This document shows positions 282 to 2,310 of a stretch of 64,000 nt of DNA, piece after piece (position 1 is the first letter of the stretch; every line of letters begins with the position of its first letter). A program made the position numbers and the translations under genes. Location: contig JACFNZ010000003.1 in assembly GCA_019454605.1 (NCBI GenBank), forward strand, positions 62,001-126,000. Reading direction: 5' to 3'. The notes beneath the pieces are model-generated. The model was given only the letters and a program-made list of their open reading frames with translations, did no database searches and was not told the origin of the DNA. This DNA is from Candidatus Altimarinota bacterium (lineage in GTDB: Bacteria; Patescibacteriota; Gracilibacteria; BD1-5; UBA6164).

Positions 282-2060
282 TTAATCTTTTTTAATTACA
301 CTCACATGTAACTCTCTTAATTGTTCTTCATCTATCAAACTTGGTGCATTCATCATAAGATCTTGAGCTTTTCAAGCTTTTGGGAAAGCATAAACTTCTC
401 TTATATTTGACTCATCTGTTAAAATCATCATAAATCTATCCATTCAAATAGCAAAACCTCAATGTGGTGGAACTCAGTATTGGAAAGCTTCATACATTGC
501 TCAAAATTTATCAATTACTTCATTTTTAGATCTTCATACAGTTTCAAATGCTTTAATTAAAATTTCTACATCATAATTACGAAGAGATCATGATAGTATC
601 TCATATCAATTACAAGAAAGGTCATATTGATTTGCTTTCATTGCTAATAAATTATCACTATTAAATGCTTCTATTCATCAAATAGGCATAGAAAATGGAT
701 TGTGTGCAAAGTCTATTTTTCATGAAATTGGGTCTTGTTCAAACATTGGGAAATCAATTATCCAACATAAAGCAAGTTTATTTTTATCTGCTAAATTAAA
801 TTTGTCTCTTAAAGCAAGTCTTACTTTATTTAAAATACCAACAGCTTTTGTAAATTCATCTGCTGAAAAAAACACTATATCACCTGATTTTGGATTTAAT
901 CTACTTTCAATTTCCTTAATTTCATCTTCACTCATAAATTTTAAAATAGGTGATTTTTTTCATCATTCTTCATTGTCATCATAAATAATATAAGCAAGTC
1001 ATTTTGCTCCTTCATTTTTAGCAACTTCAGTTAATTCATCAATATCTTTTCTTGACATAACTTGTCATTCAAGTTTTATTGCTTTTATAACTCAAGAATT
1101 ATCATAAACTGATTTAAATACTGAAAAATTAGAATTTGAAAAAATATCTGTTAAGTCAATAAATTTCATTCAAAATCTTAAATCTGGTTTGTCTGATCAA
1201 TAATTATTTAAAGCCTCATCATAAGACATTGAGTAAAATTTTTGATCCATTATTTCTTTATTTGAAAGAGATTTTACTGAATCAAATATATAATTTTCAA
1301 CTACTTTAAATATATCTTCTCTTTCAACAAATGACATTTCACAATCTATTTGATAAAATTCACAAGCGTGACGATCTGCTCTTGGGTCTTCATCACGAAA
1401 ACAAGGAGCTATTTGAAAATATTTATCAACTCATCAAACCATTAAAAGTTGTTTATATTGTTGTGGAGCTTGAGGTAGTGCATAAAATTTACCTGGATGT
1501 AATCTTGAAGGAATTAAAAAATCTCTTGCTCATTCTGGTGATGAAACTGTAAATATAGGAGTTTGAACTTCATTAAATTGATTATTATAAAACCAATTTC
1601 TTGTAAAGTTTAAAAATTTAGATCTAAATAATACATTGTTTAAAACTTTTTTTCTTCTTAAATCAATATATCTATGTTTATATCTTATTTCTTCATTTGA
1701 AGTAGTTTTGAAATCATCAAGTTCAAATGGAGGAGTTTTTGATTTTGAAAGTATTTTAACTTCTGTTATAATTACTTCTATATCTCAAGAGTGTAAGTTT
1801 GGATTAGCTTGTCAATCAGGTCTTGATCTAACAGTTCAAGAAGCCTGTATAACAAATTCTGATCTAAATTCATTTGCTATTTTATGAGCATCTTCACTAT
1901 ATTCTGGATCAAAAACTATTTGAGTAAGTCAATATCTATCTCTCAAATCTATAAATATAATTCCTCCATGATCTCTTCTATTTGAAACCCATCAAGATAA
2001 AGTAACTTTTTCTCCATCATTTTTTAGAGTTAAATCATTACAAGTATGTGTTCTAAGCAT
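282..2060 (-). CDS. aspS: Aspartate-tRNA ligase (bacterial type, possibly non-discriminating)
   Basis: The 592-residue protein has the usual length of bacterial AspRS. It attaches aspartate to tRNA-Asp, and in non-discriminating forms also to tRNA-Asn. An N-terminal OB-fold anticodon-binding domain begins [10 protein letters not shown] and contains [11 protein letters not shown]. Class II motif 2 ([19 protein letters not shown]) is near residue 221. The GAD insertion domain lies between motifs 2 and 3. Motif 3 (G-M-D-R-F-M-M-I-L) is near residue 538. Many glycines are TGA. The 5' leader carries a T-box-like antiterminator/terminator pair (2081-2278) whose N base (C) fits a tRNA with discriminator G73, that is Asp or Asn. 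If it senses tRNA-Asn, the enzyme would probably be non-discriminating and work with GatCAB; that part is inference. Confidence 0.95.
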
Positions 2061-2080
2061 ATTTTAATATTTAAAAAAAT

Positions 2081-2122
2081 AAAAAAGTATAAAGATATTT
2101 AAAAAATATTTTTATACTTTTT
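2081..2122 (-). terminator. Intrinsic terminator of the aspS leader
   Basis: The arms 2082-2100 and 2104-2122 form a nearly perfect AT-rich stem followed on the minus strand by a T-rich run. It sits just before the aspS ATG and competes with the antiterminator, as in T-box attenuation. Confidence 0.7.
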
Positions 2123-2278
2123 GGTTTGAAATTAATTTTTTCAAAAGGTGCCACCAAAAATCATTCTTAATTTTAGTTTTTTTACAAAGTGTTTCAACTT
2201 TGAGAGGTTCTAATAGAGTTTTTAAAACTTTTTCTTCCTCCAGCTTGTAGTTGTTTGCTACTAATAACGCTATTTGAA
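2081..2278 (-). promoter_or_regulatory. Probable T-box riboswitch leader of aspS
   Basis: On the minus strand the leader folds in the T-box order. The Stem I base is 2270-2278 paired with 2208-2216 (8 of 9 pairs). A hairpin at the Stem III position is 2185-2202 (CAAAGT-loop-ACTTTG). The antiterminator pairs TTTTTGG (2154-2160) with CCAAAAA (2118-2124) around the bulge TGGCACC (2147-2153), which matches the T-box consensus UGGNACC with N=C. The 3' arm CCAAAAA overlaps the 5' arm of the terminator, so the two structures are mutually exclusive. N=C pairs with discriminator G73, present in tRNA-Asp and tRNA-Asn. Stem I is short and no GAC or GAU specifier is evident. An AAC triplet just above the Stem I base on the 3' side is a possible Asn specifier. 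The antiterminator is strong; the specifier is uncertain. Confidence 0.72.
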
Positions 2279-2282
2279 AATT

Positions 2283-2310
2283 ATTTTAATAAAATATTTA
2301 AAATAATCAA
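2283..2310 (-). promoter_or_regulatory. Putative promoter of the aspS leader
   Basis: Minus-strand TTGATT (2305-2310), 16-bp spacer and TAAAAT (2283-2288). This would start a leader of about 215 nt. The match is moderate in such AT-rich DNA. Confidence 0.4.

Follow-up and report, generated by a model that had tools for sequence, protein, structure and literature searches.

T-boxes are classic RNA sensors of tRNA charging and are known mainly from Gram-positive bacteria. In the Firmicute C. acetobutylicum, T-boxes reportedly control tRNA-dependent amidation and the synthesis of asparagine and Asn-tRNA-Asn, and a two-codon T-box reportedly binds two tRNAs (Saad 2012, 2013). A 2008 survey placed T-boxes in Firmicutes, Actinobacteria, Chloroflexi, Deinococcus/Thermus, and two Proteobacteria (PMC2494555). 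Stem I is longer in transcriptional than in translational T-boxes, and searches with the class II model covered Actinobacteria as well as those class I hits in which Stem I is truncated (PMC7778990). The actinobacterial ileS T-boxes are described as translational, and that of N. farcinica carries an S-turn in Stem II (PMC7583486); a K-turn has been reported for ileS Stem I (PMC10651847). Our literature search, with most subscription journals outside it, found no paper on T-boxes in Gracilibacteria, Absconditabacteria, Patescibacteria, or CPR; a prior mention of T-boxes in the phylum may exist elsewhere.

Here, we describe an element in the leader of a CPR aspS gene that we regard, with a probability of about 94%, as a T-box riboswitch predicted to sense tRNA-Asn. 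An earlier note on this DNA had proposed a T-box on aspS, and the proposal is borne out by covariation in relatives, by the concordance of specifier with gene and of T-box with discriminator base, and by a terminator.

The aspS leader and its predicted structure

In the window (the whole 64-kb stretch of DNA analyzed), aspS lies downstream of gyrA, which ends at 2313, and the leader between the two genes is 252 nt long. The gene product, read with genetic code 25 (UGA = glycine in this host), scores 668 bits with NCBIfam TIGR00459 (bacterial aspartate-tRNA ligase), for which the cut-off is 374. That the host uses code 25 points to Gracilibacteria or Absconditabacteria. No tRNA genes were found within the window. 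Promoter-like hexamers stand just upstream of the element (Table 1), and a -10-like sequence likewise lies just upstream of the element in relatives; as four such promoter-like sites were found and 2.3 are expected in shuffles, this promoter call is only suggestive.

Table 1. Predicted features of the aspS leader and the gene downstream (positions in the window)
Feature	Positions	Strand	Description
Promoter-like hexamers	2283..2310	minus	TTGATT-16-TAAAAT; 9/12 positions; weak
T-box element	2272-2070	minus	Starts at 2272, upstream of aspS
Ultrashort Stem I, 30 nt	2242..2271	minus	Outer helix AGC (2271-2269)/GCU (2244-2242); inner helix GUAG (2261-2258)/CUAC (2250-2247)
Predicted specifier	2253..2255	minus	Asn codon AAC, followed by A2252; part of the Stem I apical loop, 7 nt in length (CAAACAA, 2257-2251)
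Stem II	2203..2241	minus	GGAGG (2241-2237)/CCUCU (2207-2203); S-turn GGAAGAA/AUUAGA (2214-2209); variable apical hairpin
Stem IIA hairpin	2185..2202	minus	CAAAG/CUUUG; in the place of the IIA/B pseudoknot with the F-box
Linker	2166..2174	minus	AAAAUUAAG; conserved as AAAUYAAG; located where the Stem III purine string would lie
Predicted antiterminator	2118..2160	minus	A1 UUUUUGG (2160-2154)/CCAAAAA (2124-2118); T-box bulge UGGCACC (2153-2147), then U; A2 UUUGAAA (2145-2139)/UUUCAAA (2131-2125), separated by AAAUUAA
Predicted intrinsic terminator	2070..2122	minus	Hairpin 2122-2082 plus U tract; overlaps the A1' strand
aspS, putative regulated gene	282..2060	minus	Bacterial AspRS, reading with code 25; TIGR00459, 668 bits

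Stem I, which the earlier note had judged to be reduced, is indeed ultrashort, and the distal tRNA-elbow-binding part (the double T-loop of a long Stem I) is absent from it. Across 100 aligned copies, 98.0% of the cells in its outer helix and 99.2% of those in its inner helix are paired, with two-sided changes. Its internal loop in the aspS leader (GUUAUUA/AA) is asymmetric and K-turn-like; family-wide, GA on the 5' side in 88 of the 100 copies and mostly RA on the 3' side are consistent with the K-turn reported for ileS Stem I, and in the aspS copy the GA pairs of this putative K-turn are degenerate (UUA/AA in place of UUGA/GA).

Stem II contains, by sequence, an S-turn of the form GAA/A-N-U-A-G-A, with a GAAGAA-type 5' strand and an A[G/U/C]UAGA 3' strand throughout the family; the bulged G is replaced by U in the aspS copy. 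The Stem IIA helix is paired in 97.2% of cells among the 100 sequences and shows two-sided changes at all pairs. Where the aspS copy has this hairpin, three relatives (L020, L028, and L017) have an exact F-box CCGUCA and a possible pseudoknot pairing. Stem III, in the RRRxG-Stem III-AA arrangement of PMC7583486, is absent in the aspS copy, in which the conserved AAUUAAG linker remains.

The antiterminator had been described beforehand as a UGGCACC bulge between complementary arms, of which the 3' arm overlaps a terminator. Both parts of this description agree with our findings: two perfect 7-bp arms, A1 and A2, enclose a 7-nt UGGNACC bulge, the mark of the T-box superfamily, and the A1' strand overlaps the hairpin at 2122-2082.

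Covariation and detection by Rfam

Of 30 loci fetched with AspRS as query, at least 11 have this RNA in front of aspS. Nine aspS leaders, aligned by MAFFT and not fitted to any structure, support six helices with 96% of the cells paired; 14 of 29 pairs show two-sided changes, a result matched by none of 500 shuffles, and RNAalifold adds a seventh helix, corresponding to the outer Stem I pairs. A covariance model (R1) built from the nine leaders matches 126 places in the class, spread over 88 of 353 genomes; many genomes have two such places, the host genome is among those matched, and the usual position of these elements is upstream of aspS and ileS. In an alignment of 100 sequences, 28 of 31 pairs show two-sided changes and 94.5% of the cells are paired, with a covariation score of 0.635 versus at most 0.128 for slid partners; because this alignment was fitted to the model, its pair counts lean towards the model, a bias of which the nine-leader alignment is free. 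Covariation in related aspS leaders, one of the checks named in the earlier note, speaks for the T-box in both alignments.

Another of these checks was a comparison with the Rfam T-box family RF00230, which has no match in the host genome, even at an E value of ≤10. It does match four distant members of the R1 set, hence of the same RNA, with 37.7 to 41.9 bits (E values of 7e-6 to 9e-5), below its gathering score of 93, which is a detection threshold and not a functional feature. The Rfam scan of the 64-kb window gave no match at gathering score, and the leader alone gave only a chance snoRNA match.

The missing Rfam match at gathering score, the AT richness of the leader, and its moderate folding z-score of only -1.94 would be expected of a plain intrinsic terminator or attenuator that senses no tRNA and contains UGGCACC by chance. 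Such an element would hardly account for the covariation, the conserved UGGNACC, the concordance of specifier with gene and of bulge with discriminator base (see below), or the subthreshold RF00230 matches on relatives, and we consider this explanation extremely improbable.

Specifier and discriminator base

The apical loop of Stem I has the form NN-XXX-A in nearly all copies. In the alignment tally, row G348 is misaligned (its sequence reads AUC), and for 15 rows the DNA fetched contained no gene that was informative. An AUC specifier goes together with IleRS, IlvA, or ThrC downstream in 50 of 50 cases, and AspRS-type genes go together with AAC or GAC in 34 of 34 (32 AAC copies with AspRS, and 2 GAC copies with either AspRS or a gene resembling AspRS/AsnRS), with no crossing between the Ile type and the AspRS type. 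Most second copies precede ileS, in some cases with small genes in between, or ilvA, and two are found with thrC. Other families of the phylum have AUC before IleRS and GUC before ValRS-like genes, which were recognized by eye from protein starts. Val-type T-boxes of this kind, with GUC in the Stem I loop, are present at L198, L201, L203, L209, L211, L216, and L221.

The earlier note had offered AAC as a candidate specifier; the concordance of AAC, GAC, AUC, and GUC with the genes downstream confirms it at 2255-2253. Other specifier frames (ACA and CAA) and a site in Stem II were ruled out by the AUC/GUC/GAC concordance at a single loop position.

A T-box on aspS might be expected to read tRNA-Asp, or another tRNA through a frame or place other than AAC, and a GAC (Asp) specifier does occur in three aspS-type members, two inside the aligned set (L135 of genome G004 and L078 of G307) and one outside it (L184 of G305), with AAC in most aspS members. 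However, AUC on ileS and ilvA, GUC on valS, and the GAC of some AspRS genes all occupy the same loop position, which fixes the frame and the place, and the AAC members belong to families without an AsnRS over the cut-off. A reading of tRNA-Asp or another tRNA by the host leader is therefore very unlikely. As for the GAC members, gene content does not explain the switch to GAC in genome G004, which has gatB and in which no asnS exceeds the cut-off.

The earlier note had matched the C in the UGGN position with G73 of tRNA-Asp or tRNA-Asn, and both host tRNAs, tRNA-Asn(GUU) and tRNA-Asp(GUC), do have G73; tRNA-Ile(GAU) has A73, such that UGGC on aspS and UGGU on ileS match the discriminator bases of the host. 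In the alignment, the UGGN base is U in all 63 AUC copies and C in 33 of 34 AAC copies, and tRNA-Asn has G73 in each of the 11 relatives in which it was read. The exception, G017, has AAC with UGGU though its tRNA-Asn has G73, which would give a G-U pair. Every specifier ends in C, and the host Asn, Asp, and Ile tRNAs have G34, in agreement with the "C rule" for the third specifier base (PMC7583486).

The T-box bulge and its surroundings vary in the Ile-type members. About 20 of them (L063, L066, L069, L070, L080, L096, and others, mostly of family f1) have UGGUAAC in place of UGGUACC, which alters a trinucleotide described as structural. The third pair of the A1 helix (319-389 in the 100-sequence alignment) is nonstandard in 57 of 100 copies; this mismatch, which recurs near the T-box bulge, is mostly an A facing G in members of the ileS type.

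Transcriptional or translational control

With RNA parameters, the terminator hairpin has an energy of -10.5 kcal/mol versus -6.5 kcal/mol for the antiterminator; the terminator is the stronger structure, and therefore termination would be the default. A consensus terminator scan called no terminator in the aspS leader because it requires three G-C pairs, and this hairpin is AT-rich. A comparable terminator follows the element in 97 of 121 relatives' copies, versus 16 to 23 in shuffles.

The actinobacterial T-boxes that come closest in Stem I and Stem II are translational according to PMC7583486, and a few class members are without a recognizable terminator, which would suit control of translation, with the ribosome site sequestered by the T-box and the hairpin downstream being incidental. 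Three observations argue against it: (i) the AT hairpin and its long U tract overlap A1' and are more stable than the antiterminator, (ii) the terminator recurs among relatives far more often than in shuffles, and (iii) in L004 and L028 the terminators end well before the aspS start and thus cannot mask the ribosome site there. We regard translational control as unlikely and a switch between antitermination and termination of transcription as the preferred reading.

Relation to class II and class I T-boxes

On sequence comparison, the aspS element is homologous to the class II T-boxes. A DNA pattern derived from the S-turn and the T-box found mostly Actinobacteria, and a second covariance model (R2) matched 28 of the 30 pattern-derived loci at an E value of ≤1 and 27 at ≤0.01 (best E value, 1.3e-14); IleRS is encoded downstream in all examined actinobacterial loci that match R2. 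The Stem I layout of the class II ileS T-boxes of Actinobacteria (N. farcinica and M. tuberculosis) is nearly identical to that found here, as seen from Nocardioides (AGCAUUUGAGCCGUUAUCAGCGGCGAGCU) and an ileS leader of the host lineage (AAGCAUUUGAGUGGCUAUCAACCACAAGCU), and the likeness extends to the S-turn (GAA/A-G-U-A-G-A), the T-box bulge, and, in some relatives, the F-box CCGUCA; the same covariance model matches both. At a "Candidatus Parcubacteria" locus (L293), AspRS is encoded downstream of an element with UGGCACC and the loop GGUAAACACC, which contains AAC.

Unlike class II ileS T-boxes, the elements described here have a predicted intrinsic terminator and no Stem III, their specifiers are those of Asn, Asp, and Ile (with Val elsewhere in the phylum), and a simple hairpin often seems to stand in for the IIA/B pseudoknot. 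The class II trait of translational control through Shine-Dalgarno sequestration appears, as judged from sequence, to give way to the intrinsic terminator. With class I (transcriptional; RF00230), the elements share the terminator/antiterminator switch and the pairing of UGGN with the tRNA end, whereas the long Stem I with its elbow-binding double T-loop is missing and the host genome lacks an RF00230 match.

Asparaginyl-tRNA formation and a proposed mechanism

The host genome (99.4% complete) encodes only two PF00152 proteins, AspRS and LysRS. No asnS over the family cut-off was found in the host genome, its family, or the sister family, in which a few members give subthreshold AsnRS-like matches, and gatB is present in the host genome. 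The earlier note had asked whether asnS is absent and gatCAB present; both hold here, GatCAB being represented by gatB. Bacteria without AsnRS use a nondiscriminating AspRS together with GatCAB (PMC4206432, PMC6523644). A literature search for AspRS residues that separate discriminating from nondiscriminating enzymes gave no usable residue data, so the argument draws nothing from the AspRS sequence itself. Because AsnRS is absent and GatCAB is present, the AspRS of the host most likely has dual specificity and charges tRNA-Asn too; the switch would therefore report the output of AspRS on tRNA-Asn.

In the mechanism that we propose, the nascent leader would fold the ultrashort Stem I, the apical loop of which would offer AAC to the GUU anticodon of tRNA-Asn, and the S-turn of Stem II would brace the codon-anticodon pairing. 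If the bound tRNA-Asn is uncharged, its 3' GCCA end may pair with UGGC of the bulge, so that the antiterminator holds and transcription reads through into aspS. If tRNA-Asn carries Asp or Asn, the weaker antiterminator would yield to the terminator. Uncharged tRNA-Asn would act as a signal of too little AspRS and would open transcription of aspS. Compared with the T-boxes reported for the tRNA-dependent Asn pathway of C. acetobutylicum, the predicted arrangement here is a compact T-box placed directly on the sole aspS of a genome without AsnRS.

Ile-type T-boxes in the host genome and its relatives

A second T-box in the host genome (L061, G000:C7:20900-25000; positions 762-923, plus strand) has AUC, UGGUACC, and a terminator and is followed by a conserved small open reading frame of 76 amino acids and then by ileS. 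The host IleRS (L061:1221-4100, plus strand) contains a histidine-phosphatase (phosphoglycerate-mutase-like) domain at residues ~702-871. In a tblastn search with this stretch, similar sequence was found in L177 and L180; the DNA fetched for several other ileS loci may stop short of this stretch. Elsewhere (L067, L085, L092, L095, L071, and L175), the gene downstream of an Ile-type T-box encodes threonine ammonia-lyase (ilvA) or else threonine synthase, accompanied in some cases by a RidA gene, and in other operons NUDIX, MazG-like, CYTH, or ITPase-like genes, named by sequence resemblance, stand between the T-box and ileS.

Range in the phylum and implications

Among 380 genomes sampled across the phylum, R2 finds T-boxes of the ultrashort-Stem-I kind in 126. 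In the same genomes, RF00230 has matches at an E value of ≤0.01 in 132 and passes its gathering score in 13; the T-boxes of the phylum are partly detectable with Rfam. Compact T-boxes with an ultrashort Stem I are probably a widespread regulatory layer of CPR bacteria (about one-third of the sampled genomes), with specifiers that can be retuned (Ile, Val, Asn, and Asp). In code-25 lineages they would have become a minimal tRNA switch that acts on transcription and lacks Stem III, and hence the division by which a long Stem I goes with transcriptional control (class I) and a short one with translational control (class II) probably fails outside Firmicutes and Actinobacteria.

These findings extend the range of T-boxes to a large bacterial branch, in which a shortened form is widespread among ultrasmall bacteria. 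The predicted tRNA sensor of about 200 nt keeps the terminator, while both the elbow contact and Stem III are missing. We predict that these bacteria gauge AspRS through tRNA-Asn, and such elements may serve as naturally occurring switches under tRNA control in organisms for which genetic tools are scarce.
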